Below, in pieces: positions 1,710 through 22,341 of a stretch of 29,366 bases of DNA (its first letter is position 1; every line of letters begins with the position of its first letter). Below the pieces are notes generated by a model. The model had not been told where the DNA came from and ran no database searches. It was given only the letters and a program-made list of their open reading frames with translations. The stretch covers positions 1-29,366 of the IMG/VR virus record IMGVR_UViG_3300022686_000088; one strand, 5' to 3'. Position numbers and translations under genes: made by a program. This DNA comes from a virus.

Positions 1710-1729
1710 GGTCTCAGTTCTCCTCAGAA

Positions 1730-1739
1730 GGGGTTGGGG
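1730..1739 (-). promoter_or_regulatory. C/A-rich leader element, 133-residue gene
   Basis: The leftward mRNA carries CCCCAACCCC 20 nt upstream of the ATG at 1709 and just before the GAGGAG site. It is one member of the recurrent leader family described in the findings. Confidence 0.5.
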
Positions 1740-1794
1740 CGAGACTGCCCTCGTCGACCCGGGTGGGCCGGTGTCTCAGAATGATACCACAGCG

Positions 1795-2547
1795 TCAGGA
1801 GACGTTCCACTTGTTCTTGAGGTAGGCCTCGACATCTGCCCGATCGCCCGTTGAGAGGGCACTGTCATACATCAGGATCTCCCCGATCTCGCCCTCGAAC
1901 GCCGTGGACGTGCCGCCGTCGAACGACCCCACGAAGAAGTTGCCGGAGTTGTCCAGGTTGCCGTAGCCGGTGATGTCGACCGGCGAGGCCGGGACCTCGT
2001 TGAAGTCCTCGAACTGGCGGAAGTTGTTGCCGTCACGGACCATGCTGGTGATCCGCACAGTGTCGTCGTTCCAGGTCTCGCTGGAGTCGGACAGCACCAC
2101 CGCGGTCGTGTCGTCGTCGATCGCGCTGGTCATGTCGTCCGAGGGCGCGGCGTTGTTGATCCGCATGTGGTAGCGAATCGAACCGCCCTTGGCCAGCAGC
2201 TCCCCGCGCTCGCCACTCTGGCTGGTGCGGTAGACGACATGGAACTCGAAGTCGCCGGCACCGACGTTGAGGCCGGTGGGGCTCGGTGTGATGATGAAGT
2301 GCTCGTCGACTCCGTCGAACTCGATCATCTGCCGCCCGCTGACCAGCACTGTCGACGGCTGCAAACCGGCGAGGCCCTGAGAGAGGGTGTGGCTGTTGCC
2401 GGACTTGTCCGCCCACGCGCTGACGTTCGACCCGGTGCCGAACGTGATCGTGCTTCCGTCCTGCGCGTCCCACCACGCCATCAGCCCGGCGATGTCGTCG
2501 GGCTGGAAGCCGGGCACGACCAAGAACGAGTTGAGGAGCATCGCCAT
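1795..2547 (-). CDS. Lectin-like (concanavalin/LamG-type) virion protein
   Basis: The 250-residue protein begins MAMLLNSF, with ATG at 2547 and a second in-frame ATG two codons on. The body has the pattern of phage LamG or concanavalin-A-like jelly rolls. GLMAWWDAQDGSTI is followed by SAWADKSGNSHTLSQ (roughly residues 21-57), then EFDGVDEHF, DFEFHVVYRTS, a TVRITSMVRDGN strand, and a C-terminal FEGEIGEILMYDSALS with an AYLKNKW helix. Such domains bind glycans or act as trimeric fibre tips. It starts three bases after the stop of the fibre-like gene, so the pair probably forms the distal receptor-binding apparatus. The ligand cannot be read from the sequence. Confidence 0.85.
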   Translation of the reverse strand: MAMLLNSFLVVPGFQPDDIAGLMAWWDAQDGSTITFGTGSNVSAWADKSGNSHTLSQGLAGLQPSTVLVSGRQMIEFDGVDEHFIITPSPTGLNVGAGDFEFHVVYRTSQSGERGELLAKGGSIRYHMRINNAAPSDDMTSAIDDDTTAVVLSDSSETWNDDTVRITSMVRDGNNFRQFEDFNEVPASPVDITGYGNLDNSGNFFVGSFDGGTSTAFEGEIGEILMYDSALSTGDRADVEAYLKNKWNVS

Positions 2548-2550
2548 GGA

Positions 2551-3471
2551 TCAGCCCCTCGTTCCGATCAGGTAGATCTTCAGGCCAGCGGCGTCCGCCG
2601 ACGAGCCGGCGTCGTCGATGTCGATCGTGATCTCGGCGTCGTCTGCGAGAGAGGTGTCGGAGATCACCGGTGCAGTGGCCGCGGTCTCCGAGGTCTTCTC
2701 CGTCGCGTCGATCGTCAGCTTGGTCGACAGGATCGTCGAGCCGCTCTCGTTGATGTCGACCGTGACCGTGCCGGTGGTGGACGCCGTCGTGAGAGAGGCC
2801 CGCACCTCGCTCAGCGTAAAGGCGTAGGGCATCCGGAACGTCACCTTGCCGGTGCCCGTGGTCAGGACCGTGGTCTCGTCTGAGGCCGCGACGATCAGCG
2901 ACTCGGTCGGGGTGCCGGCGGCGCCGAAGGTGAAGGCGTGCCAGTCACCGGCCCCGTTCGAGACCAACAGCACGCCGGAATACTGCGAGGTGAGCTGGAG
3001 GTTCGACGCTCCGTTGATCGTGTCGGAACCGTTCGGGTCGATCGTGATGGTGCCGGTGCCCTCGTGGAAGACCAGCAGCTCGCGGCCCTCGTTAGCAGCA
3101 GCCAGAGCCTCCAGATCGACGTCGAAGCTGCTCGCGCCCGTCGTCACCACGATCATGTCGTCCGCGTCCACCGCGTAGGTCGTGCTGGCCTCTTGACGCA
3201 GCTTCCGCATGAACGTCCAGTTCGACAGTAGGCGGTAGGCCGAAGCGTCGGACGCGATCGGAACGTCGCCTGAGCCGGCCGTCTTGTAGAGGGCCCAGGC
3301 CAGGGTGTGGTCGTAGCTCCCGGCCGCGAAGGTGCTCTGCAAGTCGGCGAGCGTGTCGTTGTGGAAGTAGAGCGGTATCGGCCGGTCAAAGATGTTCTGG
3401 AAGTTGTCGTTGACCTTGCCGTCCCAGGCCGTCTCGGCCGAGCCGGGGATCTTGCGGGAGTATCGGGCCAT
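2551..3471 (-). CDS. Tail fibre-like protein with C-terminal phage beta-domain
   Basis: The 306-residue protein starts with ATG at 3471 behind AGAGG. The N-terminus (ARYSRKIPGSAETAWDGKVNDNFQNI) looks like an attachment segment. The last 115 or so residues, from SLIVAASDETT to YLIGTRG, match a beta-sandwich type seen at the end of many phage tail and fibre proteins, including the hallmark VTFRMPYAFTLSEVRASL and the INESGSTIL strand. The middle (about 100-190) is Gly/Thr/Ser-rich and beta-prone. Gene order, directly after the tip protein and before the lectin-like gene, supports a distal tail structure. Which of the two proteins contacts the receptor is unknown. Confidence 0.85.
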   Translation of the reverse strand: MARYSRKIPGSAETAWDGKVNDNFQNIFDRPIPLYFHNDTLADLQSTFAAGSYDHTLAWALYKTAGSGDVPIASDASAYRLLSNWTFMRKLRQEASTTYAVDADDMIVVTTGASSFDVDLEALAAANEGRELLVFHEGTGTITIDPNGSDTINGASNLQLTSQYSGVLLVSNGAGDWHAFTFGAAGTPTESLIVAASDETTVLTTGTGKVTFRMPYAFTLSEVRASLTTASTTGTVTVDINESGSTILSTKLTIDATEKTSETAATAPVISDTSLADDAEITIDIDDAGSSADAAGLKIYLIGTRG

Positions 3472-3479
3472 GATGCCTC

Positions 3480-6359
3480 TTAGGTGACGTTGGTGAAGGT
3501 CTGCGTGACGGGCTCCGCGAGCTGGCCTCCTCGGACCTGGGTGATGCGGAGCTTGAAACCGGCCGGCTCGGACGACGCGAAGTCGGCGAGGCGATCTGTC
3601 TCAGTATACGTGAAGGCAGCGACCGAGACGGTCTCGGTTCGCAACAGCGTGTTGGAGAGGTTGAGCACCTCGACGATGAAATCTCCCTCTGGGGCCGGAT
3701 TCGGCGACGCCGTGCCGTAGCCACTCTGGCCGGCTCCGGCTCCGGGGGACTGCGGGTTCGAGTAGGCCCAGAGGAAATCCAGGTCGTCCTCGCCCGGGAC
3801 CGCGGTCAGGCGGTAGGTCAGGTCGGACCAGCGCACAGTGCCGCTGCCTGCGGAGCCCGATCCCGTGTCCAGTCGGATGTCCGAGACCTGCACCGGCCGG
3901 GGACCCTTGCCGTAGACCGGCAGGTCGAATGCGGTGATGGTCGACAAGGGGATCGTGCCTACGCCAGTGGGCGCCGACTTCGCGTAGACCGTGGAGTCCA
4001 CCGTGAGGATGACGTTGTCCTGAATCAGAAGGCCGTCGGAGTCCTCCAAGATGTAGATCACGTCGCCCATCGCCAGGTCGATCGGTCTGGTGTCGTAGCG
4101 ACCTCGGATCAGACCGCGCATCTCGTAGGTGCTGCCGACGACGTTCACGATCCGCTGGAGGAACATGATCTCCTGTTCGCCAGCGGCGTTGATGGCCACC
4201 GCGAGCTGGCGGCCGGCGCGCCACGCCGTCAGGTCAGACGACAGATCCAGCACCGTGCCGATGTCGACTCCGAGGGCCGTGAACTGGGGCCCGATGCTGA
4301 GATCCATCTCGGAGTCGGCAGGGAACGACGCATCGAGGGTGCCGCCGGTCATAATCGAGCCGTCGTTACCCTCGAAAGTGAACGTGGAGTTGTCCGGACT
4401 CAGGTAGATGTCGGAGCCTAGCACGGCCGAGTGCGCGCGGATGCGTGGGACAAGCACGGTCTGCGGACCGTTCGCACCGGTGAGGATCTCCGGCACCTCG
4501 ATCAGCCCGAAGGACAGATCGGCCTCGACCGGCGTGCCTCCACTTCCGGTGTTTCCGCCGTTCACCTTGAACTGAGAGAGCGGGGCCCCGTAGAAATCCG
4601 GCATCACGTGGAGCTGGACCTCTCCGCTCTCCGGATCGACGATGACCTTGGTGACTCGCATCACCTCGTTGAAGCCGTCTACCAGGATAGCCTGGCCAGG
4701 GATTAGCCGCCGGCATCCACGGTTGCACGAGATCATGTGAGCGCCGGAGCCTGCGCCGGCCATCTCTTCGAGCTCGCGCCTCGCTGCGATCAGAGAAGCG
4801 GTGTCGAAGAAGATCGTCGAGATGATCTGCACCACCCGCTGCCGATAGAATTCGGCGAATGCCGCCTGACCGTCGTCATCGACGGTGATGGTCATGTCCC
4901 GATACTGGTTATCCTGATCGGTGAACGAGAACACCAGGCGGTCGACTGGGCGACGGGAGTGGTTGCCACGGATCTCGGGGACCTTGGTCTGGAGATCGTA
5001 GGTGACGTTCGCGAGCGTTCCTCCGGACGGATCACGCAGAGGCACGAACTCCAGCAGCCCGGTTCTGAAGTTCAGCGCCAGGAAGCAGCCGATGTCCTGC
5101 ATGATGCCGCCGATGAGACCCTGGAGATCCTGAGCGTCCGGCGCGATCACGCTGCACCTCAGATCCTCGGTCTCGGTCAAGGTGCCGAGGTCCTCCAGCG
5201 TGTTGATGTCGATCTCGGCCGAGGACCCTGTCTTGGGCTGTCCGATGCCGTGCGGCCACGGATCGTAGAGGAGTTCGGCGAGGATGTGCGCGATGTTCAG
5301 GCCGTCGTCGCCTTGGCTGACGTAGACCGACACAGTGCCGTCGTTGGTGGCCCCAGAGATCGTCTCGTTGGTGAAGATGTCGGTCGTGTTCGACGGAGAT
5401 ACCGGGCGCGTGACCTTGAAGACAGTGAAGTCGGTGGGGGTGCCGAGGCCAGTGTTGCCCGAGAGCTGGATCTGAGTCAGCGCGCCGAGGTTCGCGTCCC
5501 CGAGCACGGTGATCTTCGCAGTGCCCTTCGTGCCGTTGGTGACAGTGGACACGATGTAGGTCTGGCTACCGAGCACCTGCGTAGCCGAGAAGCCTTGCGA
5601 GGACATCGACAGGTGGACAGACTGAAGCTGCGTCTCGAAGACGTAGGTCATCAGTGGCCAGTTCGGTGACGGCCCAAGACGCTTGCTGATCCACTGGATG
5701 TAGCAGAGGTGTGGCCAAGAGGAACTGATGCCTCCGTTGATCGAGGTGAAGGACGGATCGCTGTTGATCGGCTGACCGTCGGCTACTCCGTTCTGCCCCC
5801 AGAAGATCCGAAAGCTGCCCTCGTTGCCCAGGTTGATCGTGGAGCCGGAAGGGTGAGACTCGCGCGAGATCGGGCCGGTGAAGATCGGCTTGCCTTGCTG
5901 CTCGATGCTATACAGGGTCCAGGCCGGGCCGACGCAGATGGCGTGCCATCCATCCTCTCGAAAGACGTCCACCTTCGGTGCGCTGAACACCGAGCCCTTA
6001 CCGCCCTCGGCCTTCTCCTTGGCCTTCTGTCGGTTGCCTGCTGCGCAGAACACGTAGCCGAGTCGGCGCCTGCCGATGAGACGAGGAACGAAGGTTCCAC
6101 GCGTCGCAAGAGCCGTGGGCTTGTCGTCCTGAGCCAGCGACTTGTTCTTCTTCTTCAGCAGCTCGGCAGCCAGCAGAGACAAGCCGATCGACAGAATCAG
6201 AAGGGCGACTGTGACCAGAGCCTTGGATGGCTCATTGGGATCGACCTGCGGAGGGAAGGCCGCAGTCCAGAGAGTGTAGAGACCGAGCGCCGTGGTGCTG
6301 CCGATGATGAGCGGGAGCTTCAGCTCGTCAGGATCGTCGTAGATTCTCACAGCGCCCAC
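3480..6359 (-). CDS. Large tail-tip/host-specificity protein (gpJ / GTA megatron-like)
   Basis: The 959-residue protein starts with GTG at 6359 inside the end of the NlpC/P60 gene (13-nt overlap). Its size and place after DUF2460, DUF2163 and NlpC/P60 genes match the central tip protein of GTA-like and chi/YuA-like siphophages, which forms the tail-tip cone and contacts the cell. Two strongly hydrophobic stretches stand near the N-terminus, about residues 15-36 and 47-67. Then come a KKKNK basic patch, a Trp-rich region (about 135-260), a hub-like central region containing RLVFSFTDQDNQYRDMTI (about 470-600), and a C-terminal part with fibronectin-like strands. The fold assignment rests on gene order and overall pattern, not on a catalytic motif. 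Confidence 0.85.
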   Translation of the reverse strand: MGAVRIYDDPDELKLPLIIGSTTALGLYTLWTAAFPPQVDPNEPSKALVTVALLILSIGLSLLAAELLKKKNKSLAQDDKPTALATRGTFVPRLIGRRRLGYVFCAAGNRQKAKEKAEGGKGSVFSAPKVDVFREDGWHAICVGPAWTLYSIEQQGKPIFTGPISRESHPSGSTINLGNEGSFRIFWGQNGVADGQPINSDPSFTSINGGISSSWPHLCYIQWISKRLGPSPNWPLMTYVFETQLQSVHLSMSSQGFSATQVLGSQTYIVSTVTNGTKGTAKITVLGDANLGALTQIQLSGNTGLGTPTDFTVFKVTRPVSPSNTTDIFTNETISGATNDGTVSVYVSQGDDGLNIAHILAELLYDPWPHGIGQPKTGSSAEIDINTLEDLGTLTETEDLRCSVIAPDAQDLQGLIGGIMQDIGCFLALNFRTGLLEFVPLRDPSGGTLANVTYDLQTKVPEIRGNHSRRPVDRLVFSFTDQDNQYRDMTITVDDDGQAAFAEFYRQRVVQIISTIFFDTASLIAARRELEEMAGAGSGAHMISCNRGCRRLIPGQAILVDGFNEVMRVTKVIVDPESGEVQLHVMPDFYGAPLSQFKVNGGNTGSGGTPVEADLSFGLIEVPEILTGANGPQTVLVPRIRAHSAVLGSDIYLSPDNSTFTFEGNDGSIMTGGTLDASFPADSEMDLSIGPQFTALGVDIGTVLDLSSDLTAWRAGRQLAVAINAAGEQEIMFLQRIVNVVGSTYEMRGLIRGRYDTRPIDLAMGDVIYILEDSDGLLIQDNVILTVDSTVYAKSAPTGVGTIPLSTITAFDLPVYGKGPRPVQVSDIRLDTGSGSAGSGTVRWSDLTYRLTAVPGEDDLDFLWAYSNPQSPGAGAGQSGYGTASPNPAPEGDFIVEVLNLSNTLLRTETVSVAAFTYTETDRLADFASSEPAGFKLRITQVRGGQLAEPVTQTFTNVT

Positions 6360-6937
6360 TCCTCGCGCTGGTAGAACCGGCGCACGTCATGCAGCTCGTA
6401 GGGCTCCGGAAAGTAGAGGCCGGTGTAGTGGACCCGCTGCCCGTCGGCCTGCCACATGGTGTTCTCGCGAGGGCCTACGATCATGGCGTGGCCTGGACCG
6501 CCGCCGATCGGGCCGGAGATCAGGATGTCCCCGGGCTGAACATCCCAGACTTCCATGGCCGTCTTCTCTTCTTCGCGAGACTCGACAGGGATGCTGCCAG
6601 AGTAGGTGCGCAGGAACCACTTGAGAGCTGCCCGCGCCTTGGCCGCGTTGTGCATGGCCGTGTCGTGCGGGATCTCAGGCAGAGGCATGGGCTCGCGACG
6701 GAACAGTTCGTCCAGCACGCGAGCCACGAAGGCCGTGCAGAACACTCCGCCCTCCGGGCCTTGCTTGACGATCGAAGGCGAGTAGGGAGTGTGCTCCCAT
6801 CCAGTCAACACGGCCTCGAGCCTGCGCTCGAACTTGCGACCGCGCGCCACGTCCTCGACGAAGCCGTTGCCGTCCGCGTGTGCGCCGAACTTCACAGGGC
6901 CCCAACGCAGGCCCACATCTCGGTAGTGGATACTCAC
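6347..6937 (-). CDS. NlpC/P60-type tail cysteine peptidase
   Basis: The 196-residue protein starts with GTG at 6937, overlapping the preceding stop (GTGA). Family features are the nucleophile region GGVFCTAFVARVL with Cys67 at the start of a helix, and GPGHAMIVG with His150 at the start of a strand. PGDILI just before it is a typical NlpC/P60 segment. Homologues in lambda (gpK) and GTA (orfg14) cleave cell-wall peptide cross-links during entry or help assemble the tail tip. The third catalytic residue is not certain from inspection. It sits between the DUF2163 and tip genes in the conserved tail-tip order. Confidence 0.88.
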   Translation of the reverse strand: MSIHYRDVGLRWGPVKFGAHADGNGFVEDVARGRKFERRLEAVLTGWEHTPYSPSIVKQGPEGGVFCTAFVARVLDELFRREPMPLPEIPHDTAMHNAAKARAALKWFLRTYSGSIPVESREEEKTAMEVWDVQPGDILISGPIGGGPGHAMIVGPRENTMWQADGQRVHYTGLYFPEPYELHDVRRFYQREEWAL

Positions 6938-7803
6938 TGGAGGGTGCCTCCGTCCTCGAAGTTCGGATGGTAGGGCGGGATGGCGAAGCCGATCCCGAGG
7001 AAGTTCGCCTCGTTGCTGTAGCGGGCGCGGCAGGTCTCGATCGTCTTGTCACACCCTGAACGCAGCACCACCGTCCGGCCGTCCCAGTCCTCCGGAGGCT
7101 TGCGGCGCATGAAGAACTCCAGCCGGTTGCCGTTGATCTCGTCTCGCCAGTCGTGGATGCTGATGGTCAGACCTTCGAGGGTCATGTCGCCGCGCTGATA
7201 GAACCGATCGCCAAGGCCGGTCGGAATCGCGCTGACCGTGACCTTGGAGCCGTCGATGTCGGTGATAAGCACGTTGAGCGTTCGACTGGCGACCGACATG
7301 TCGACCTTGCAGACCGGCCCGCCGAGGATGTTCACGCACTGGTGGTTGCAAGGCAGGCCCAGTGCGACTTCCTTGATGCGAGCCTTCAACGGCAGAGCTT
7401 CTATTCGGCACAGGCCGGGCTCACCTTCGGCGTTGCGAACATATTCTCCACACTCCCCCTTGAAGACGGTGCTGACCGTGAGGGTGCCCTCGGCGTTCTC
7501 TGACCTCTGGATCTCGATCACCTCGACGGTGGTGACCGCGAATGGCTCACCGCTGGTGTAGCGGTTCTGGAAAGCAGCGGGATCCTCCGACACCGGCAGC
7601 GTGATCGTCAGCGGGTTGTCCTGAAGGATGCCGTCGTTCTCCGGGAGTTGGATCTCCATCGACGGCGTGGACTCGTAATCTACGCCGCCGAATGAATAGT
7701 CCGAGTCGAGGTTGGTGAACGCCTCGGGAGACGTAGGACCGCCGTGGGTGAACTTGACCAGCGTGAACGGCGTCTTCTGTGAGAGGTCAATCGCTTCGGC
7801 CAT
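6934..7803 (-). CDS. DUF2163 / phage BR0599-family tail hub protein
   Basis: The 289-residue protein starts with ATG at 7803. The C-terminal signature GCDKTIETCRARYSN followed by NFLGIGFAIPPYHP is that of the BR0599 family. Further Cys in LPCNHQC and GPVCKVD (about 150-167) complete the usual cysteine set. Lambda gpL, in the equivalent position, binds an iron-sulfur cluster through conserved Cys, so a cluster here is a reasonable inference. The N-terminal half resembles the beta-rich hub domain of DUF2163, with CGEYVRNAEGEPGLCRIEALPLKA. GTA orfg13 is the counterpart. It lies 8 nt after the DUF2460-like gene and overlaps the NlpC/P60 gene. Confidence 0.9.
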   Translation of the reverse strand: MAEAIDLSQKTPFTLVKFTHGGPTSPEAFTNLDSDYSFGGVDYESTPSMEIQLPENDGILQDNPLTITLPVSEDPAAFQNRYTSGEPFAVTTVEVIEIQRSENAEGTLTVSTVFKGECGEYVRNAEGEPGLCRIEALPLKARIKEVALGLPCNHQCVNILGGPVCKVDMSVASRTLNVLITDIDGSKVTVSAIPTGLGDRFYQRGDMTLEGLTISIHDWRDEINGNRLEFFMRRKPPEDWDGRTVVLRSGCDKTIETCRARYSNEANFLGIGFAIPPYHPNFEDGGTLQ

Positions 7804-7811
7804 CGGTGCTC

Positions 7812-9470
7812 CTAGGGGTCGACGTCGACTTCCTTCTCATTCTGGGTCTCGACAGTCGTCAGTCTAACTCTACACCCAGCCTCGGTAGCCTGCCACTTCT
7901 CTCTGAGGAACTCCTCATCGAAGCGGGTGATTCGAGCCACAGCGAACCTCTCGATGGTGGTGACATCGAGCCCGATGGGCATCGACTGCCCGAGCACCAG
8001 GGTCAGGCGCCACCGGCCGCCGATCTCCTGCACGGTGTTGATCTGGCGGATCAGAGGCGGGGATCCGTCATTGAAGACGATGCCAGCGGCGATGTTCTGC
8101 TCGGTCCAGATCGACTCGAAGTCAGCGAACACTCCCTGTGGAGTGATCTCGATGAACTGCGGATCGGTGTCGATCACAGCCCACACGAACTCGCGGTCTA
8201 TCGCCCAGAAGTTCAACAGCGGCCCCTTGCGGCTGTCGAAGAAGGACAGCACCTCCCAGAAGCTCTGGCGATCGGTGAAGCCGAGGTCGAAGTGCTGCAC
8301 CTGGTTGTAGCGGGTGCCTTCCTTGAACACGACCGACTTGCGGCCCTTGCGCGTCTCTCGACCATAGCGGCGATACGACGTGCGGACGGCAGAGGAGAAG
8401 TCTGGTTCGATCTCGAAGACCGGCTTCCCGAGTTCCACGGTCCAGCCGGCCGGGAAGCCGAACGCCACCGGGGGCAGGGAGTTCTTGCCCTTGTGCTCGC
8501 GACAGGTCAGAGTGAGGTCTACCACCGTCTCTCCGGTGGACTGCACTCGGTGATCCAGCTCCGGCTCGAGCAAGATCTCCAGGTCAATGAGAGGGGCCAC
8601 GGCGTAGCGGCCGGCTTCCTTGGTGGAGGCCAGCGCCGAGTTCAGGACCAGTCTGTCTCCGAGAGGGTAGTTGATCGAGTGGACGTCATAGGCCCCGCTC
8701 AGGTGCATCTGTGGTCCGACCGGAACGATCACGATGCGTCCGCCTTGGAAGAATCGACGACTGTCAGCGTCTACGAACAGCTCGGTGCCGGAGCTGTCTT
8801 GCGTGACCAGAGTGAAGTCCTGGTAGATCGGCATGACGATGTTCTCGTCCGTCATGCGACGCAGCGTGACGTAGAGACGGTCTGCGATCTCCGGGGTCAT
8901 CTGAAGCCAGCGGAAGGTGATGATACGCTCAGGGCGATCTCCGTCGGCTCGACGCTCCTCGGCTCCGGTAGCTCGGCTCCGAGTGATGTCGGTGGGATAC
9001 CTGGTCTCCATCTCGACCTCGGTGGCCCAGTTGTGCATGAAGATGTCGATGCCGGTCGGGAACGGCAGCGGCTCTGGAGCGATGACGCCGGTCTTCGCCA
9101 TGATCTCCAGACCGACATCGGTGACTCGCAGCTCACTCGTGCTGCCGGAGTCTGCGATCGTCTCCGCGGTATAGCGGGTGACAGCCACGGTGCTTGGAGT
9201 TTCTGCTGCCACCTCGATGCCGACGTCGGTGACCTGGACTTCACTTGCTCCACCGTCGTTGCCGTCGGCCACGGCTTCCGCGGTGTAGCGAGTGACGCCT
9301 GCCTTGGGCGGAGACTTCGCGAAGACCTCCACGCCGACGTCGGTGACCTGGACCTCGCTCGTGCTGCTGGAGTCGGCGACCGTCTCCGCCGTGTAGCGGG
9401 TGACGGCGGCCTGCGCGGGGGACTCCGCGAAGACCTCAACGCCGATGTCGGTTACACGAACGTCAACCAT
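7812..9470 (-). CDS. DUF2460-like distal tail protein with N-terminal VTDVGVEV repeats
   Basis: The 552-residue protein starts with ATG at 9470. Residues 1 to about 125 are an imperfect repeat with three full units of about 36 residues and one partial unit. Each unit has a V-x-VTD-(I/V)G-(V/I/L)-E strand, and the three full units end in a VTRYTAE segment. Related VTQ(L/V)GVEV repeats are common in phage virion proteins. From about residue 135 the sequence resembles distal tail proteins of the GTA orfg12/DUF2460 type, with FPTGIDIFMHNWATEVEMETRYPTD at the join, FRWLQMTPEIADRLYVTLR, VQHFDLGFTDRQSFWEVLSFFDSRKGPLLNFW and a C-terminal FDEEFLREKWQA. GTA orfg12 is only about 210 residues and lacks the repeats, so this is an extended fusion. 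It is the first gene of the tail-tip module. Confidence 0.82.
   Translation of the reverse strand: MVDVRVTDIGVEVFAESPAQAAVTRYTAETVADSSSTSEVQVTDVGVEVFAKSPPKAGVTRYTAEAVADGNDGGASEVQVTDVGIEVAAETPSTVAVTRYTAETIADSGSTSELRVTDVGLEIMAKTGVIAPEPLPFPTGIDIFMHNWATEVEMETRYPTDITRSRATGAEERRADGDRPERIITFRWLQMTPEIADRLYVTLRRMTDENIVMPIYQDFTLVTQDSSGTELFVDADSRRFFQGGRIVIVPVGPQMHLSGAYDVHSINYPLGDRLVLNSALASTKEAGRYAVAPLIDLEILLEPELDHRVQSTGETVVDLTLTCREHKGKNSLPPVAFGFPAGWTVELGKPVFEIEPDFSSAVRTSYRRYGRETRKGRKSVVFKEGTRYNQVQHFDLGFTDRQSFWEVLSFFDSRKGPLLNFWAIDREFVWAVIDTDPQFIEITPQGVFADFESIWTEQNIAAGIVFNDGSPPLIRQINTVQEIGGRWRLTLVLGQSMPIGLDVTTIERFAVARITRFDEEFLREKWQATEAGCRVRLTTVETQNEKEVDVDP
9070..9470 (-). repeat. Intragenic tandem repeat (about 110 nt per unit)
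   Basis: Three full units and one partial unit encode the VTDVGVEV/VTRYTAE repeats at the start of the distal tail gene. Landmarks on the + strand are GTCGGTGAC, repeated near 9117, 9224 and 9337 (GTCGGTTAC in the copy near 9448), and GTGTAGCG/GTATAGCG near 9170, 9280 and 9390. Variation is mostly at third codon positions, which suggests selection on the protein. Confidence 0.7.
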
Positions 9471-9474
9471 CGGT

Positions 9475-11583: not shown

Positions 11584-11589
11584 GTTTCG

Positions 11590-15042: not shown

Positions 15043-15342
15043 CTAGAATCTCCCGCCCTTGGCGGAGAACCCGAGTGCCTTGAGGAACTCCTTGGCACCT
15101 CCGGCCGGTGCGTTCTTCGGCGCCTTCATGGGTCGATCACCCACCGCCGCGAGCCAGCCATTGGTCAGTTCCCGCATCGCCTTCGACTCACCCTGCGCAG
15201 CGACCATGTGGGTCCACGCCTGCTCCGCCTTCTCCTGGTAGAAGATGCGCGTCAGGCCTGCTGCGATGGCGTTGAAGGTCAGCACGTCCAGATCCTTCAC
15301 CTTGTCGATGTCCCAGCCGGTCTGGATGACCAGCCAGAGCAC
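15043..15342 (-). CDS. Tail assembly chaperone, second part (gpT-like)
   Basis: The frame from GTG at 15342 encodes 99 residues, with VIQTGWDIDKVKDLDVLTFNAIAA and a basic C-terminus KEFLKALGFSAKGGRF. It lies between the first chaperone gene and the tape measure gene, the usual place of the frameshifted T part of a G/GT chaperone pair. The frame is also open upstream of the GTG, and its translation there (ELSADSSWSEIEEQ) looks like real protein. This suggests that it is translated by a -1 shift from the preceding gene and that the GTG is not the true start. GT-type fusions recruit tape measure and tail tube subunits during assembly. Confidence 0.75.
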   Translation of the reverse strand: MLWLVIQTGWDIDKVKDLDVLTFNAIAAGLTRIFYQEKAEQAWTHMVAAQGESKAMRELTNGWLAAVGDRPMKAPKNAPAGGAKEFLKALGFSAKGGRF

Positions 15343-15420
15343 CTGTTCTTCGATCTCGCTCCAAGAGGAGTCGGCGCTCAGCTCGCGGGACTCGGGGTCT
15401 CCGTGTCGCTGCTGGGCTGC
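15343..15420 (-). other. Probable -1 frameshift region between chaperone frames
   Basis: The first chaperone frame stops at TGA (15380-15378). The second frame, -1 relative to it, has no stop across this stretch and reads DPESRELSADSSWSEIEEQ into the downstream protein. No classic X-XXY-YYZ heptamer such as GGGAAAG is visible. The runs ACCCCG (about 15393-15398) and GGGG (about 15431) are the only slip-prone places I see, so the exact site is open. Confidence 0.5.
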
Positions 15421-16061: not shown

Positions 16062-16080
16062 GGTGTGGCGGTCTCCGTAA

Positions 16081-16092
16081 GGGTTGAGGGGT
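16081..16092 (-). promoter_or_regulatory. C/A-rich leader element, chaperone gene
   Basis: The leftward mRNA reads ACCCCTCAACCC, ending 19 nt before the ATG at 16061 and followed by a CGGAG site. It is a diverged member of the leader family. Confidence 0.4.
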
Positions 16093-16098
16093 AGAGGT

Positions 16099-16122
16099 CA
16101 GGGGAGGACGGATCCTCCCCTG
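16099..16122. terminator. Perfect hairpin after the major tail protein gene
   Basis: A 10-bp perfect stem (16099-16108 with 16113-16122) closes a 4-nt CGGA loop. No T-run follows on the leftward strand, so it may be a pause site, a partial terminator or an mRNA-stabilising 3' end that lowers expression of downstream genes relative to the tail tube protein. Confidence 0.6.
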
Positions 16123-16147
16123 GGTATCCTACCACAGATCAGCCCGA

Positions 16148-17008
16148 CTAGAGGCCGCGAACCGTCAGCGTCGCGCCGGTCGACCCGATGTTCGAGTTCT
16201 TCAGCGCGGTGCCGGAGAACTGGGCCACGGCGGCCTCGTTCTCCTGGATCAGGTTCATGTCGCCGTCGGCCGAGAGGCTGACCCGGTGGAACTCGTAGAC
16301 GATCTCCTCGTCGGAGTTCAGCGGGTTCACAGAGATGAACTGGAGCGAATACTCCTTGTTCGTGGCCTGGAGCGCCTTGACCCGGTCGATGTTCGCCGGA
16401 GCGCCCATCTGCGCGGTGACCGCCCAGTCGACCGTGTCGCCGTTCATCACTGAGACCGCGGTCGTCGGGAAGAACACGAAGCCGGTCTCGGGGTCCAGCT
16501 CGTAGTCCGTGCCCTCGGTGAGGGAGGTCGGCGTGCCAGAGGGGTCCTCGCGGATGGTGACGTCACTGGTGTTGGCCGGGTCGATGGAGACCGGGTTGCC
16601 GGTGCCGTCATACTTGGTGAGGAGCTGATACCACATGCCCAGCGTGATGTTGGTGGTGATGACAGTGTCGGCCGAGGCCGAGACGCCGGCCACCGCCGGG
16701 TTGGTCAGCTCCTCCGTGGTGCCGTTGAAGAACAGCCCCAGGTTGTCGAAGGACAGCTCGTCGAGCGAGAAGGACAGGCCGATCTCGCGGGACGTCACCG
16801 CGCGGGCGTCGACCTCCGAGAAGCCGGAGAGCGAGCTGCGGTGGGTAAACTCCTCGATCTCGACCGTGGTCGCGAAGGCGGGAGCGTTGCCGAGGTGACG
16901 GTAGCCACTGGGCAGACCAGTGCTCGTGTCGTTCTCGGCGAGAAGGAGGCGGCCACGACCCAGCACGTAGAAGTTCGGGTTCGGGCGTCCGGTTGCATTC
17001 AGACCCAT
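16148..17008 (-). CDS. Major tail (tube) protein
   Basis: The 286-residue protein starts with ATG at 17008 behind GAGGA. It begins MGLNATGRPNPNFYVLGRGRLLLAE, typical of tube subunits that open with a strand pair around a GRG motif, and contains TVEIEEFTHRSSLSGFSEVDARAV, the region that usually forms the tube beta-sheet. An inserted-looking segment (about 130-175, SLTEGTDYELDPETGFVFF) matches the EGTDYxxDxxxG module common in phage tube proteins. It stands directly before the chaperone genes and has its own C/A-rich leader and a 3' hairpin, as expected for an abundant protein. It should polymerise as hexameric rings around the tape measure. Confidence 0.88.
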   Translation of the reverse strand: MGLNATGRPNPNFYVLGRGRLLLAENDTSTGLPSGYRHLGNAPAFATTVEIEEFTHRSSLSGFSEVDARAVTSREIGLSFSLDELSFDNLGLFFNGTTEELTNPAVAGVSASADTVITTNITLGMWYQLLTKYDGTGNPVSIDPANTSDVTIREDPSGTPTSLTEGTDYELDPETGFVFFPTTAVSVMNGDTVDWAVTAQMGAPANIDRVKALQATNKEYSLQFISVNPLNSDEEIVYEFHRVSLSADGDMNLIQENEAAVAQFSGTALKNSNIGSTGATLTVRGL

Positions 17009-17032
17009 GTGAGGATTTCCTCGATCGTTGTC

Positions 17033-17044
17033 GGTTGGGGGGTT
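17033..17044 (-). promoter_or_regulatory. C/A-rich leader element, major tail gene
   Basis: The leftward mRNA reads AACCCCCCAACC, 24 nt before the ATG at 17008 and upstream of the GAGGA site. Confidence 0.5.
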
Positions 17045-17053
17045 ACGTCGGGA

Positions 17054-17491
17054 TCAGCTCGGCGACAGCTCGGCGGCGAAACGCCAGGTGGCGCGAGAGC
17101 CGGTTGAGGGACTCTTCCGTGGAGGGTGGACGTAGTCCTCTGCCTCCTCCAGGAAGATGTCGACTTGTCGAGGAAGCCCGCTCTGAGCGCGCGTGATCCT
17201 CGGGGGGTTCTCTGCGATGTCCCGCTCGAACTCCTCGAACGAGACGGCGCGATCGAAGGCGACCTCCACCACCCAGACCCAGGTCGTCCGCTCGACGTAG
17301 CGGCTCTGGCGGTTCTGTGCTGGGGTGTCGAACGTCGACGACCGCATGTCGATCTTGAGCGTGCGCGGCAGCTTGAAGACGGAGGCACTCGTGGCGCGCG
17401 TCTTGCCGTCCGGGTAGGTGACCTCCGGGAACGAGCCGGCCAGGACTCTCGTCCGTAGCGCGTCGTGGATCATGTCACCGTAGTTCACCAT
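17054..17491 (-). CDS. Tail terminator / tail completion-like protein
   Basis: The 145-residue protein is assigned to the ATG at 17491, which shares its A with the stop of the upstream gene (TGATG). A GTG one codon earlier is possible. It starts VNYGDMIHDALRTRVL, and has TLKIDMRSSTFDT and a WVWVVEVAFDRAVSFEEFERDI segment. The small alpha/beta pattern and place between connector and tail tube genes fit the tail terminator (gpU-like) or another tail completion protein that caps the tube. No diagnostic motif is visible, so the assignment rests on gene order. Confidence 0.7.
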   Translation of the reverse strand: MVNYGDMIHDALRTRVLAGSFPEVTYPDGKTRATSASVFKLPRTLKIDMRSSTFDTPAQNRQSRYVERTTWVWVVEVAFDRAVSFEEFERDIAENPPRITRAQSGLPRQVDIFLEEAEDYVHPPRKSPSTGSRATWRFAAELSPS

Positions 17492-18051
17492 CACTCACAC
17501 TCGGTCTTCGGGTTGCCCCACAGGCGGCAGTTGCCGCCGATGAGCGAGCCCAGCGGGAAGATGCGCCCGCCAGCGGCATCACCCTGGAGGTGGACCTTGG
17601 CGGACTCGGTCTCGCCGAGGCTGATGTCCTGGGCCAGGAGTGGGATCATGTCCTCGATCCACTTCAGGCACTCCTCGATCGTCTCGCGGACTCGGTCCGG
17701 GTCGATGGAGCGGAAGATGCCCTCCTGGTTGTATTGCTCGAGGTCGTCGCCGGAGTTGTCGAAGAACTTGAGCGGCATCCTCTGCGCGAGGAAGCACCAC
17801 ACCCACTTCTCCTCGACCTCCTCGGCCAGGGCGCGCAGGACGCCGGCCTCGCTGGTCGGGTTCTCCGTGGACGGGATCGCGACCAGGTTGGCGACCTGGG
17901 AGGTTCCCAGGCGCGCGTAGAACTGCGTGCGGACTCGACGCGTGGCCCCGTCGATCAACGGCTGAGCGTCGTCAGTCGACTCCACCCCGGACAGGCGCAG
18001 ACGCGCCTTCAGGTCGTCCATGGTGGCGATGAACAGCGGGGCCACAGCCAT
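17491..18051 (-). CDS. Head-tail connector / adaptor-like protein
   Basis: The 186-residue protein starts with ATG at 18051, with GAGGAG 11 nt upstream. MDDLKARLRLSGVESTDDAQPLIDGATRRVRTQFY is the classic helical start of gp6-like head-tail adaptors, which open with a short helix, a loop and a DDA-type turn. LRALAEEVEEKWVWCFLAQRMPL (about 90-115) and RVRETIEECLKWIEDM (about 130-145) form the expected helices. The C-terminal part is Gly-rich with two Cys. It follows the head genes and precedes the tail genes, as a dodecameric adaptor under the portal would. A second in-frame Met at position 11 is an alternative start. Confidence 0.75.
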   Translation of the reverse strand: MAVAPLFIATMDDLKARLRLSGVESTDDAQPLIDGATRRVRTQFYARLGTSQVANLVAIPSTENPTSEAGVLRALAEEVEEKWVWCFLAQRMPLKFFDNSGDDLEQYNQEGIFRSIDPDRVRETIEECLKWIEDMIPLLAQDISLGETESAKVHLQGDAAGGRIFPLGSLIGGNCRLWGNPKTECE

Positions 18052-18053
18052 GG

Positions 18054-18767
18054 TCAGCTACGCTCCTCGTCGACGAAGTCGTCGATCTCCAGGTCCTCGT
18101 CCTCGTCGTCGTCGAGCAGGTCGCCGAAGAACTCGTCGTCGGACAGTTCGTCGTTCGGACTCGCGTCGGCTGGCGGAGGCCCGTTCACCAGCTCGTCGAA
18201 GATCACCTCGGCGTCGTCGGCGGCCGGCATCTCGACGTGTGGCTGGGCATCGCCCTCGATCACGTCGTCCAGGCTCGGCTCCTCGACCGTGGCCTCATCC
18301 TCGATGATCGGCTCCGGCGCTGCTGCGCGCTCGGCCTCCAGCGTGGCTTGCTTGCGGGCGCACTCCTCGGCCTCCTGCTGTGCCTTCTCGGCCGCCTTCT
18401 TCGCAGCGACCTCGCGTTGCTCCTTGGCGAGCTGCGCAAGTTGCATCTGCACGTCGGCGTTGTGTGGAGTCTCCGACCGGATCGGCCGCTGCTCGCGCTT
18501 GGTCTTCGGATCGTATTCGTCGATCTCGGCCGGCAGCGGTGGGGCCTCGGACGAACGGAACTTGACCACCTTACCGGATGGCGTGACCTTGTAGCTGCCA
18601 GGACGGCGCGCAACTTGGTTGTTGGCGATCAACTCACGGAGAGCCGCCTCGCGACCACGGAAGACGTTGATGTCGATCTCCTGGCCGGGGTGATAGAGGA
18701 TGGGGCCGATCTTCACCGATCCCTGGTCGGTGACGAACAGGACCTTCTTGTCTGCTGTCTGGTTCAT
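18054..18767 (-). CDS. Acidic coiled-coil head-region protein
   Basis: The start is placed at the ATG at 18767, preceded by AAGGA at 10 nt. An upstream ATG pair at 18791 lacks a Shine-Dalgarno. The 237-residue protein has a small folded N-terminal part (VLFVTDQGSVKIGPILYHPGQEIDINVF). A charged coiled coil follows around residues 110-160 (QLAQLAKEQREVAAKKAAEKAQQ), then a long Asp/Glu-rich tail (DELSDDEFFGDLLDDDEDED). Such proteins between the capsid and connector genes have been seen as head-completion or scaffolding helpers, but I recognise no family. The acidic end could mimic DNA or bind basic internal proteins, which is speculation. Confidence 0.75.
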   Translation of the reverse strand: MNQTADKKVLFVTDQGSVKIGPILYHPGQEIDINVFRGREAALRELIANNQVARRPGSYKVTPSGKVVKFRSSEAPPLPAEIDEYDPKTKREQRPIRSETPHNADVQMQLAQLAKEQREVAAKKAAEKAQQEAEECARKQATLEAERAAAPEPIIEDEATVEEPSLDDVIEGDAQPHVEMPAADDAEVIFDELVNGPPPADASPNDELSDDEFFGDLLDDDEDEDLEIDDFVDEERS

Positions 18768-18804
18768 CTTGTGTGGTTCCTTGTGCATCATTGCTGGTGT
18801 GAAC

Positions 18805-18834
18805 AGGGGGAGGGACCAAGTGGCCCCTCCCCCT
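18805..18834. terminator. GC-rich hairpin after the capsid gene
   Basis: AGGGGGAGGG (18805-18814) pairs with CCCTCCCCCT (18825-18834), and CCA/TGG inside the loop can extend the stem. On the leftward strand no T-run follows. Lying between the capsid stop and the next gene, it probably acts as a partial terminator or 3' stabiliser that sets high capsid expression. Confidence 0.6.
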
Positions 18835-18863
18835 AGTGTAGCAGGTCAGAGGGGGTCAGGGGA

Positions 18864-19910
18864 TCAGCCCGAGACCACCTTCATGCTGACCATGCTGTCC
18901 GGGCGACGCGGGACCGGCAGCGGACGGCTCGTGACGAGCTGCCACCAGACCGACGGATCCTCCTGCACCCAGCTCTTGGAGAAGCGACGGCGACGGATCG
19001 CGCGACCCTCTAGGGCGGTGATGTCGGAGATCGGGCCGAAATACATCGTGTTCTCGGCCTCGGGGAGCACCGAGACGAACTCGGCATACTTCGGACGGAC
19101 CAGGTCGTAGCTCGCACCAGCGACCGTGGTCTTCCGCGAGTAGCTCCAGACGGCGAGGCCGCTGAAGTTCCCCAGGAAGATGGAGCCGTCGGCGTTGAAC
19201 TGCTCGTTGAAGGTCACCTGACCGGCGCTGATGTTCTGGGTGTCGAGCAGCGCGCGAACGCCGTCCGAGTTCAGGAACGCCGTGGTGGCCTCCGAGCCCA
19301 GGAGGACGTGCGTCAGGCCGAGGCCGACGTCGTCCGAGACGAGCTGCTTGGCCGTCAGGAAGTCGTCCGACGGGTTGCCACTCGCCAGGTCCCAGAAGTC
19401 GGTCAGGGTCACGTCGTGCGACGACGACCGAGGGAAGACGACCTCGAAGGCCTCCTCCTCGTCCACCTCGTAGGTGATCGAGCCGCGGAGCGCCTGGGCG
19501 CAGAGATACTCCTCCGCCTCGGTCACGACGTCGTTGAGACGCTGCGACGTGCGGGAGATCTCGCGCTCGGCGCCGTCCAGGACGTCGCCCTCGTCGACGA
19601 AGATGGCTCCGCCGATCTGGCGGTCGAGGATCAGCTCGGCCGGGTTGAGGTGTCGCTTCACGCGGACGTGCGACGTGGTGACGTTCAGCCGTTTCTCGGT
19701 GTAGGGCGTGATCTCGATCGCCTCGCCGGTTCGGCGGGCGAACGGACTGACCACGCGGTCGCCGATCAGGATCGGCACCTCGAAGGTCTCCGCTGCGACA
19801 AGGTCTTCGTTCGAGAAGACCAGTCGCCGGATGAACTGGTTGGGGGACTTGAGCTCGTTGACGAGGCTCGTCAGCGCGGCCCAGCCCGTGATGTCCTTGG
19901 TCTCAGCCAT
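18864..19910 (-). CDS. Major capsid protein (lambda gpE family)
   Basis: The 348-residue protein starts with ATG at 19910 behind AAGGA, close to the 341 residues of lambda gpE. The E-family pattern can be followed: LVFSNEDLVAAETFEVPILIGDRVVSPFARR in the N-terminal arm and E-loop, then EKRLNVTTSHVRVKRHLNPAELI, ERE-ISRTSQRLNDVVTEAEEYLCAQAL as the spine-helix region, SEATTAFLNSDGVRALL, and a C-terminal RRRRFSKSWVQEDPSVWWQLVTSRPLPV. It forms the HK97-fold shell. Gene order of protease, decoration and capsid supports this. A C/A-rich leader and a strong 3' hairpin suggest high expression. Confidence 0.93.
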   Translation of the reverse strand: MAETKDITGWAALTSLVNELKSPNQFIRRLVFSNEDLVAAETFEVPILIGDRVVSPFARRTGEAIEITPYTEKRLNVTTSHVRVKRHLNPAELILDRQIGGAIFVDEGDVLDGAEREISRTSQRLNDVVTEAEEYLCAQALRGSITYEVDEEEAFEVVFPRSSSHDVTLTDFWDLASGNPSDDFLTAKQLVSDDVGLGLTHVLLGSEATTAFLNSDGVRALLDTQNISAGQVTFNEQFNADGSIFLGNFSGLAVWSYSRKTTVAGASYDLVRPKYAEFVSVLPEAENTMYFGPISDITALEGRAIRRRRFSKSWVQEDPSVWWQLVTSRPLPVPRRPDSMVSMKVVSG

Positions 19911-19928
19911 GGTAGTGGTTGCTTCCTT

Positions 19929-19958
19929 GGGGGTTCAGGTCAGGGGTTCAGGGTTGGG
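19929..19958 (-). promoter_or_regulatory. C/A-rich leader element, capsid gene
   Basis: The leftward leader reads CCCAACCCTGAACCCC and then TGACCTGAACCCCC, with the last C-run 18 nt before the ATG at 19910. AAGGA follows. It is the longest and most repeated version of the element. Confidence 0.5.
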
Positions 19959-19959
19959 A

Positions 19960-20736
19960 TCACGGGACCTGGGTCAGGCCACGCACGATGATGCCCTTCT
20001 CGCGCAGCTTCTCGCTGCGGAGGGCGGCGTCCAGCTCCGATTCGCTCGGAGCGCCGTAGGCCGCGAGGATGGTCCTCATCGCCGCGGTGTTGATGTCGTC
20101 GCGGTAGACCTCGCCCTTGATGAGCGCGATCGCCAGGACGTCGTCGGAGGCGTCGAGCTGGACGCCCTCCTCGCCGGGGTTCGCCTCGTAGACGAACGCG
20201 TTGATCTCGTTCGTCCCGTTGAGCTGGGTGCCCGGATCGCTCGCGGCCAGGACGTGCGCGTTGCCCGTCAGACCGGAGACGTCGATGTCGACGCTCGGGG
20301 CGCCGGCCGACTCGTCGAACGTGATCGTGATGACCGCGTCCGCGTCACCGAGGTCGGTGCCCATCGTCGCCGCAGCGGAGAGGGTGTAGGGCTTGCCGGC
20401 ATCCGCCAGCAGCGCGTTGACCTCGGCCTCCAGCGCCGCAGCCGCCACGTCGAACGCGTGGACGGAAGCCAGACCGTCGACCATGAGCTGGAACGTGCCA
20501 GCGGAGGCCGGGGTGGAGTCGGCGGTGATGGTGTAGACCGCAGCGTCGCTGGGCTGGGTGTAGGGGACCCACTTGCTGTTCGCCTTGTCGAAAGCGAGCG
20601 GGGCGCCCAGGGGGAGCAGCTCCGCGCCGGCCGAGGCCGCGATGCGGACACGCTTGGTGCCGTGCATCTCCGGGGTCATGCGGGGGGTGACACCGAGCGT
20701 CTTGGAGCTGAGCAGAGAGTGCTTCTTCAGAGCCAT
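19960..20736 (-). CDS. Capsid decoration protein with inserted domain
   Basis: The 258-residue protein starts with ATG at 20736 behind GAGGA. The ends carry the gpD-like decoration pattern: ELLPLGAPLAFDKANSKWVPY (about 39-59) and, far downstream, INAFVYEANPGEEGVQLDASDDVLAIALIKGEVYRDDINTA (about 180-220). Between them about 115 residues look like an independent beta domain (FQLMVDG, AAAALEAEVNALL, ITITFDES, DVSGLTG), related in style to a repeat widespread in phage virion proteins. Lambda gpD is about 110 residues, so this is a decorated trimer subunit with an extra surface domain. It precedes the capsid gene, as in lambda. Confidence 0.82.
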   Translation of the reverse strand: MALKKHSLLSSKTLGVTPRMTPEMHGTKRVRIAASAGAELLPLGAPLAFDKANSKWVPYTQPSDAAVYTITADSTPASAGTFQLMVDGLASVHAFDVAAAALEAEVNALLADAGKPYTLSAAATMGTDLGDADAVITITFDESAGAPSVDIDVSGLTGNAHVLAASDPGTQLNGTNEINAFVYEANPGEEGVQLDASDDVLAIALIKGEVYRDDINTAAMRTILAAYGAPSESELDAALRSEKLREKGIIVRGLTQVP

Positions 20737-20764
20737 TGGTGAGTTTCCTCGTTCTCAGTTCAGA

Positions 20765-20777
20765 TTGGGGTTGGGGT
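20765..20777 (-). promoter_or_regulatory. C/A-rich leader element, decoration gene
   Basis: The leftward mRNA reads ACCCCAACCCCAA, 28 nt before the ATG at 20736. The same 13 bases occur at 21387-21399, inside the protease gene. Confidence 0.55.
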
Positions 20778-20796
20778 TCTCAGCGAGAGCGAGGGC

Positions 20797-21369
20797 TCAC
20801 GCCACGGCGCTCGAGCGCCGCTGGGACTTGTTGTGCCGCTCGGCGATCTGCTTGCCGAGGTTCCACTGCTTGGACTCGGACTTGGTGAGACCGTGGACCT
20901 TGCGGCCACCCTTCTCGACCTCGTCCTCCTCGTCCTCGTCGGCGTCCTTGCCGGGCTGACGGCTGGCCTTCTCCAGCTTCTCGATGCGGGCGTTGGCCTC
21001 GTCGCGCTCGCGCTTGGCCTTCTCCAGCTCGGTCTCCTCGGCGCCTTCGCCGTCGGACTTCGCCTTCTCCAGCTTCTCGGCCTCGGCCTCGGCCTTGGCG
21101 CGCTTCGCGGCCTGCTCGCGCCGGTGCTTGATGAGCTTCTGGACGTCGCCGGGCTTGCTCATGTCGAGCTTCGCCACGAACAGGTCGTCCAGATACTTCT
21201 CCAGCTCCTCCTCGGTCGCGTCGGCGCCCGGGGGCTCGGGGAGTTCGTTGGCGGGGGTGTCGATCACGTCGTCGGCGTCCGGCTTAGCGGGCGCGACCGC
21301 CTCGGCGACCGCCGGGGCCACTGCCTTCGCGATCTCCGCCGCGAGAACCTTCATCTCTTCGGGGGTCAT
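20797..21369 (-). CDS. Probable nested scaffold protein from an internal start
   Basis: An in-frame ATG at 21369 (Met321 of the protease-scaffold) has GAGGA 10 nt upstream and, before that, a C/A-rich element identical over 13 bases to the decoration gene leader. The product would be 190 residues. It begins MTPEEMKVLAAEIAKAVAPAV, followed by Pro/Asp linkers and long charged helices (HRREQAAKRAKAEAEAEKLEK, KAKRERDEANARIEKLEKA), and ends in a basic tail suited to bind the capsid protein. This is the arrangement of lambda C/Nu3, where the scaffold is made from an internal start in the protease gene. The internal start is inferred from sequence signals only. Confidence 0.65.
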   Translation of the reverse strand: MTPEEMKVLAAEIAKAVAPAVAEAVAPAKPDADDVIDTPANELPEPPGADATEEELEKYLDDLFVAKLDMSKPGDVQKLIKHRREQAAKRAKAEAEAEKLEKAKSDGEGAEETELEKAKRERDEANARIEKLEKASRQPGKDADEDEEDEVEKGGRKVHGLTKSESKQWNLGKQIAERHNKSQRRSSAVA

Positions 21370-22329
21370 GTTGAGGTCATCCTCGGTTGGGGTTGGGGTG
21401 TCGTGAAGGCGGGACTTGCCGACCAGTTCGACTTCGGCCCGGCCTGCCATCGAAACACCGATCCACTCGCCAAGCTCATAGCCGGCCAGCAGATCGGGAT
21501 CGTGGATCTTGAGGATCAGGCCCCACGCACCGGTGGGGTCGATCTCGTTGCCGGCATCGTCCATGATGCCGGCGAACTTGGGGTCACCGGCGGGCACGAT
21601 GTAGTGCTCGGCGATGTGGACGTCTTCCTTCGACAGGGGAATGTTGTCGTGCTCGATGTCGATGTTCCCGCCGTGCAGCAGGAAGTTGTGCGCCATCTTG
21701 CGGATCTCGTCGGCGGACATGAAGTCGCCCTCGTGGTCGACCAGGTCCGGGACGTAGACGAGCGCGTGGAGCAGGCCCTCGTTGTCCATCTTCGCGATGG
21801 TCGTCTGAAGGTCGAACTCCGCCTCGCCGTCCTTGATGCTCTTGAGCAGGGAGCGCACGCCGTTGATGCCTCGCCGGCACAAGCTGACGGTGTGGATCTC
21901 GCCGTTGCGCAGCCGGCGGCGAGGCTTGCGGCTTTGCTTGTTCAGCGGCAGGCCCTCGTCGTCCTCTTCCTCGTCTTCCTCGGCCTGCGGCGCCTTGCGA
22001 GTCTTGCGCGACTTCTTGGCCATCGCGACGTCGACCATCTGCCGGCGGAGCTGCGCGAGCGCGCGGGTCAGCTCCATCTCGTCCACCTCGTGGGTGTGGC
22101 CGTCGGCCTCGCCGATGACGAGGTTGCCCTCGGCATCCATGGTCCACGGGTGGGAGTGCTCGTCCTCGGTGGCGGCGTCCCCGGTCGAGGGCGACGTCTG
22201 GCCTCCGAGAGTGCCGTTCTCCAGCTCCCATGAGTAGAGCGAGACGGCGTGCTGGTGGCGTTCGACGGAATCGGTGAGGAGGGTGATCGTCTTCTTGACG
22301 GGGGCCTTCCGGCGGGTCTTCGTCGTCAT
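20797..22329 (-). CDS. XkdF-like prohead protease fused to scaffold
   Basis: The start is placed at the ATG at 22329, with AAGGA 9 nt upstream. The open frame continues further, but that part is antisense to the portal gene and reads as noise. The 510-residue protein has a His-rich N-terminal region (ERHQHAVSLYSWE, EHSHPWTMDA, DGHTHEVDE). An acidic linker follows, then the XkdF-type protease domain (about 170-305) with YVPDLVDHEGDFMSADEI, IDIEHDN (His227) and GVSMAGRAE (Ser293), the probable catalytic His and Ser. From about 320 on it is Ala/Glu/Lys-rich coiled coil with a basic end, typical of scaffolds. The protease would mature the prohead and cut its own scaffold part. Confidence 0.88.
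   Translation of the reverse strand: MTTKTRRKAPVKKTITLLTDSVERHQHAVSLYSWELENGTLGGQTSPSTGDAATEDEHSHPWTMDAEGNLVIGEADGHTHEVDEMELTRALAQLRRQMVDVAMAKKSRKTRKAPQAEEDEEEDDEGLPLNKQSRKPRRRLRNGEIHTVSLCRRGINGVRSLLKSIKDGEAEFDLQTTIAKMDNEGLLHALVYVPDLVDHEGDFMSADEIRKMAHNFLLHGGNIDIEHDNIPLSKEDVHIAEHYIVPAGDPKFAGIMDDAGNEIDPTGAWGLILKIHDPDLLAGYELGEWIGVSMAGRAEVELVGKSRLHDTPTPTEDDLNMTPEEMKVLAAEIAKAVAPAVAEAVAPAKPDADDVIDTPANELPEPPGADATEEELEKYLDDLFVAKLDMSKPGDVQKLIKHRREQAAKRAKAEAEAEKLEKAKSDGEGAEETELEKAKRERDEANARIEKLEKASRQPGKDADEDEEDEVEKGGRKVHGLTKSESKQWNLGKQIAERHNKSQRRSSAVA
21387..21399 (-). promoter_or_regulatory. C/A-rich leader element inside the protease gene
   Basis: The leftward mRNA reads ACCCCAACCCCAA, 17 nt before the internal ATG at 21369, in the same relation to a GAGGA site as in the other leaders. 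In the protein it encodes part of the TPTPTEDD linker. Confidence 0.55.
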
Positions 22330-22341
22330 GCTGGGGGATCC

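Follow-up and report, generated by a model that had tools for sequence, protein, structure and literature searches.

The C/A-rich tracts found before several virion genes of the uncultured phage recorded in IMG/VR as IMGVR_UViG_3300022686_000088 (29,366 bases, analysed over its whole length and called the window here) are probably local, strongly C/A-rich cases of an unstructured ribosome-loading leader carried by independently initiated, abundant virion genes. We infer this ribosome loading, and a higher expression of the genes concerned, from the composition and position of the leaders, from their conservation in relatives and from their predicted weak folding. In the proposed mechanism, a leader placed ~16-45 nt upstream of such genes would, being poor in G and U, remain single-stranded within a GC-rich transcript, because C and A cannot pair together. 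The open leader would offer 30S subunits a landing (standby) surface beside the Shine-Dalgarno (SD), and initiation would be raised on the capsid, the decoration protein and, via an internal start, the scaffold. Genes coupled by overlap would be supplied with ribosomes from the preceding gene and would therefore need no C/A leader.

Most head and tail genes of the window lie on the minus strand, including the protease ORF and the decoration, capsid, connector-type, tail tube and tape measure genes (Table 1). The decoration protein had 0 matches in PHROG or Pfam, and no match was found in these collections for the 133-residue protein starting at 1709 either. The sole phage-record match of the portal (22642-23781) is to Halorubrum virus BJ1 (23%, E 2e-6); unlike this match, other genes of the family resemble those of bacterial phages. 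Positions 22330-22431 form a divergent spacer between the protease (minus) and the portal (plus), a layout common to many relatives. Additionally, tRNA-Glu(CTC) and tRNA-Met(CAT) genes lie side by side on the minus strand (490-642), and an Rfam scan of the window gave no leader match, these two tRNAs alone passing the threshold.

Table 1. Genes, leader tracts and the putative nested product of the window.
Feature	Positions	Strand	Basis or remark
XkdF-type head protease ORF	20797..22329	-	PF14550 E 1.2e-21; phrog_3017 head maturation protease
Nested in-frame product, probable scaffold, 190 aa	20797..21369	-	internal ATG
Decoration protein	19960..20736	-	by position and within-family homology; 76 family matches
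Major capsid protein, protein E type	18864..19910	-	phrog_29 E 3.8e-45; 83 family matches
Major tail (tube) protein, Ig-like domain	16148..17008	-	phrog_807 E 2.5e-42
Portal	22432-23979	+	opposite direction to head/tail block
Pure C/A 17-mer inside protease ORF, before internal ATG 21369	21385..21401	-	encodes Thr-Pro linker
14-nt pure C/A tract before decoration start 20736	20765..20778	-	window sequence
C/A-rich stretch before capsid start 19910	19929..19958	-	CCCAACCC..AACCCC..CCCCC
AACCCCCCAACC C/A tract before tail-tube start 17008	17033..17044	-	looser than CCCCAACCCC
CCCCTCAACCC before start 16061 (tail chaperone by position)	16081..16091	-	looser than CCCCAACCCC
CCCCAACCCC before start 1709 (133-residue protein)	1730..1739	-	exact copy

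An earlier note on this DNA had described C/A-rich tracts before six ATGs (1709, 16061, 17008, 19910, 20736 and the internal 21369), and all six are present on the mRNA strand as described. The word CCCCAACCCC occurs in three exact copies (1730-1739, 20767-20776 and 21389-21398), all of them on the minus (mRNA) strand before starts and none on the plus strand. Its window-wide count is not in excess (3 with at most one mismatch vs 2.21 expected), and it is notable for its placement, not for its number of copies. In the capsid leader, CCCAACCC lies at 19951-19958 and CCCCC at 19929-19933, and the C/A stretch makes up most of the 49-nt spacer. The tract-to-ATG distances, given earlier as 17-28 nt, come to 18-30 nt when taken from the coordinates (20, 19, 24, 18, 30 and 19). 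The further statement that the tracts stand right before the SD fails at the decoration start 20736, where ~14 nt more intervenes between the tract and a weak SD, GAGGAA.

The tracts were also said to mark uncoupled starts and to be lacking at coupled ones, which is mostly the case. Of the 19 starts examined on the minus strand, 6/7 uncoupled and 1/12 coupled ones have a C4 run in -45..-11 (Fisher p=0.0017, in a test that, like the other start-position tests in the window, was designed after the finding was known). When a 15-mer with C+A of at least 12/15 was required in addition to the C4 run, 5/7 uncoupled and 0/12 coupled starts qualified, the window's background being 8/243 for the remaining ATGs of that strand and 2.5% for random positions, so that the element is not equally frequent at random positions. 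The C+A threshold without the C4 run gave a weaker separation (5/7 uncoupled vs 3/12 coupled, p=0.067). The rule fails at the protease start 22329, which is uncoupled and has no C/A tract (C+A at most 10/15). The uncoupled gene 18791/18767, omitted by the earlier note, has a C-run that doubles as the 3' arm of a hairpin.

GC hairpins were observed after the capsid and tube genes in the window (16094-16130 and 18805-18835) as well as in L022, L091, L093, L160 and L174; terminator-like T-runs accompany them in several relatives and are absent in the window. The CCCCTCAACCC tract sits directly after a GC hairpin. A promoter-like word, TGTGGTANNNT, is common to the window leaders of 16061 and 1709 and to L174, where it stands before the protease and chaperone genes; before the chaperone gene, a hairpin follows it directly.

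A single-protein search with the capsid found no relative, and a search with the tail-tube protein gave 11 distant loci. The family was recovered by alignment-based IMG/VR scans using the capsid, which yielded 24 loci and then 80 kept of the 288 relatives reported. The 83 loci used here are the window, L022, L023, L088-L108 and L159-L217, and the gene order of the window is kept in many of them. The nearest relatives, L174, L088 and L159, are at 56-58% in the capsid; a GTDB genome scan returned only relatives at 22-28%, and no capsid relative above 31% identity was found among the phage records. Start positions were transferred from the window to the relatives at a fixed offset and near-duplicates were removed, which accounts for most of the rows left out of the composition set (16/76 for decoration, 17/83 for capsid). 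Leaders were taken as spaced when the gap was at least 30, and their composition was measured at -45..-17.

The C/A composition is found in the same place in the relatives. Spaced decoration leaders contain C.414, A.304, G.126 and T.157 (n=46), with C exceeding G in 44 and the reverse in 1 (one tie), and with A exceeding T in 34 vs 7. Similarly, spaced capsid leaders contain C.370, A.299, G.148 and T.183 (n=53), with C>G in 47 against 3 (three ties) and A>T in 37 vs 14. When leaders sharing a 9-mer were dropped, C still exceeded G in 27/28 decoration and 32/36 capsid leaders. The combined profile peaks at -30..-16, where C+A reaches 0.78 and G falls to 0.09 (n=70), dips at the SD and rises again at -5..-1. 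C+A in the controls was 0.59 for other uncoupled genes of the family (n=85), 0.56 for tail-tube-related phages (n=40) and 0.54 for GTDB prophage loci (n=40), and leaders with C+A of at least 0.8 numbered 42/70 for decoration and capsid vs 10/85, 3/40 and 3/40. Furthermore, G is steady at about 0.07-0.11 across contig GC of 0.39-0.68, with C replacing T (only 7 leaders lie below GC 0.55). The C/A-rich leader trait extends beyond the window's family: capsid leaders of five distant cultured phages have C+A of 0.73-0.93, and A/C-richness was also seen before the tail-tube genes of unrelated phages, with starts chosen by SD.

Other genes of the family fit the ribosome-loading leader less uniformly. 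The coupled g17_4 and tmp leaders show no C>G bias, and tube leaders with a gap of at least 30 have C>G in 13/15, with A>T not seen. Evidence against this reading comes from the coupled g17_0 leaders, which are nonetheless C>G (26 vs 5, n=36), from the abundant tail tube, whose gene is closely coupled (median gap 15) in the majority of relatives, from the uncoupled protease start that has no tract and from the chaperone leaders, which are C-rich but T>A (A>T in 11 vs T>A in 26, n=42) and many of which carry terminator-like hairpins.

Structure prediction supports the earlier suggestion of an unstructured leader, since C/A composition predicts weak folding. When the leader was swapped for its complement, the predicted fold became 6-9 kcal/mol stronger for the decoration and capsid genes, and the native fold was weaker than the complement version in 43/46 decoration and 42/53 capsid leaders. 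Shuffling the leader shifted the predicted fold by ~1 kcal/mol or less, and therefore it is composition and not base order that sets the weak folding. Compared with shuffled versions, native capsid leaders fold slightly stronger (-14.3 vs -13.0, p=0.02) and native decoration leaders slightly weaker. Predicted SD-to-ATG accessibility changed modestly (0.56 vs 0.53 for decoration, 0.58 vs 0.49 for capsid); because it is barely altered, any benefit must sit in the leader, and the folding models suggest that the gain is likely an open landing site rather than an unmasked SD.

The internal ATG (21369) shares the frame of the protease ORF around it, and the tract at 21389 is coding sequence. Using an N-terminal pattern picked without reference to the SD, we found a homologous internal Met in 48/62 non-redundant ORFs, the window included. 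An SD of at least 4 precedes 41/48 of them and an SD of at least 5 precedes 29/48, compared with 16.6% and 4.1% of 1,570 control Met codons. In addition, C+A at -30..-16 is 0.63 vs 0.53 in controls and at least 0.8 in 9/48 vs 2.2%, figures that are somewhat inflated because the pattern was written after viewing candidates, some of them listed for C/A content; the SD figure is free of such selection. The internal starts of L174 and L159 have no SD and a C/A run up to the ATG, and the peptide encoded there is unlike the window's. These data suggest that the homologues of 21369 probably represent a conserved nested start for a scaffold, a probable role judged by position and sequence character. 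Selection on the nucleotides at the internal start is more weakly supported than the nested scaffold start itself. In phage lambda (C/Nu3), the scaffold is translated from a start nested in frame in the head protease gene. The arrangement in the window is alike in this nesting, and differs in the C/A-rich tract ahead of it and in that its scaffold role is presumed.

The earlier note had offered two roles for the element, an unstructured translational enhancer or a binding site for a phage regulator. The former is favoured by the C/A-rich leaders that relatives have in the matching position before the same head genes, the weak predicted folding, the recurrence at the internal start and the C-rich leaders where the SD is lost. 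The latter, widened to any site at which a small RNA or an RNA-binding protein of phage or host would recognise a specific sequence and control late translation, seems improbable to us. Its support is the three exact CCCCAACCCC copies before starts and a weak excess of CCAAC-type words in non-redundant decoration and capsid leaders, in counts that include the window's own leaders (CCAACC 9 vs 3.9±1.9, reached by 2/200 shuffles; CCAACCC 6 vs 1.7, reached by 0/200). As a conserved word, CCCCAACCCC was rejected: relatives with the same gene order share no word in their leaders, shuffled leaders have as many C-runs or more, and it is only the C/A composition that persists among them. ACA trinucleotides show no clear excess either (112 vs 99.0±8.8 in mono- and 102.0±6.7 in dinucleotide shuffles), and the dependence of folding on composition and not on order also argues against a site of this kind. 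A template-strand G-quadruplex (four G3+ tracts) was likewise tried and rejected, occurring in 3/99 decoration/capsid leaders vs 1.3±1.0 in shuffles.

Somewhat less probable again is a role in transcription, as a Rho-utilisation (rut) site or another element, on which Rho would load if the next gene were untranslated. C far above G, spacers of ~40-80 nt and the hairpins that several relatives have downstream of capsid and tube would suit it. Rho accepts pyrimidines, and thus the depletion of T alongside G counts against rut, as does a bias that is maximal at the SD edge, returns at -5..-1 and is present where spacers are close to 30 nt. Another reading, in which phage spacers have a general strand bias, C-runs drift locally and there is no translational selection, would agree with the mild C>G of most uncoupled leader sets examined and with the A/C-rich tube leaders of unrelated phages, and we also give it little credence. 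The decoration/capsid effect is position-locked and greatly exceeds that of the family's remaining uncoupled leaders, and it also occurs at the internal start, where the leader is coding sequence. The least probable of these alternatives is that the C-rich leader pairs with G-rich 16S rRNA, a model derived from C-rich ribosome-binding sites (RBSs) selected in vitro. C-rich phage leaders, including one of a late gene, match the description published in the part of that work considered here (PMC3310771), but complementary 7-mers are not above shuffles (327 vs 353.6±20.6 mono- and 366.6±22.5 dinucleotide, 92 leaders), counted against E. coli 16S, which may not be the host's.

The leaders described here are probably, by analogy, a variant of known CA-rich enhancers or of the C-rich RBSs selected in vitro. 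In this regard, CA-rich elements upstream of the SD of gltI, dppA and yifK, which are GcvB targets, raise translation in the experiments described in PMC3879156. As presented there, they are similar in being C/A stretches just 5' of the SD, position-tolerant and with a proposed initiation boost, and they differ in belonging to bacterial transporter genes, in their ACA repeats and in their tested activity, whereas the family of the window would carry a predicted enhancer on phage head genes that is C-dominated and without a clear ACA excess. C-rich RBSs have been selected by ribosome display and noted in phage leaders, one of them before a late gene, and they work poorly in E. coli cells, according to the sections of PMC3310771 used here. 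The same sections show further likeness in a C-rich leader within ~18-30 nt of the start, noted before a late phage gene, and in the existence of SD-less versions, comparable to L159, L174 and L088. The published sites lie no more than 18 nt upstream of the AUG, whereas most leaders of the window's family retain an SD and their complementarity to E. coli 16S is not above shuffle. The start-associated sequence (SAS) of cluster K mycobacteriophages, as outlined in PMC3203893, is a 13-bp word that is conserved and includes the SD; it is likewise a repeated element before some phage starts, with a translation role proposed and unproven, while the element in the window's family is upstream of a separate SD and has no conserved word. 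Our literature search, chiefly of freely readable papers, did not find C/A-rich leaders described as a trait that a phage family shares on its head genes; the closest is PMC3310771.

A small branch of the family has leaders of this composition without the SD. Only 12/126 decoration/capsid starts have an SD below 4. The capsid leaders of L088, L159 and L174 are C-rich (with A or T), G-poor and SD-less, and their capsid N-termini, MAETRDVLSW, match MAETKDITGW of the window. The decoration leaders of L159 and L174 are also C-rich, G-poor and SD-less, and L088 has an SD there; the L088 capsid leader is C/T-rich, the others of the subgroup being mostly C/A. In the divergent spacer between protease and portal, these three loci have the start context GATTCTACCACATG, which reads as the promoter-like word in reverse complement. 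SD use is sparse throughout the genome of L174 (10/21 called genes at SD of at least 4), and SD frequencies from de novo gene calls are upper bounds because callers favour SD-bearing starts. SD-less initiation tuned by structure and start context has been described in Flavobacterium, in the portion of PMC6847099 cited here. It is possible, and we put it forward only tentatively, that in L174, L159 and L088 the G-poor, C-rich leader has replaced the SD as ribosome-binding site of the head genes, also at the nested start, so that the signal would be SD-independent and coded by composition, the window being a mixed form.

Lastly, if the tracts are indeed ribosome-loading leaders, they would provide natural, repeated cases, on head genes in a large group of uncultured phages, of a translation signal whose code is base composition and not a word. 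The idea that late phage genes are served by C-rich leaders could be tested on them, and they would suggest a simple design rule for expression in high-GC laboratory hosts, namely to avoid G and U in the stretch upstream of the SD. The SD-less branch would be a natural experiment in this respect and is the part most worth testing.
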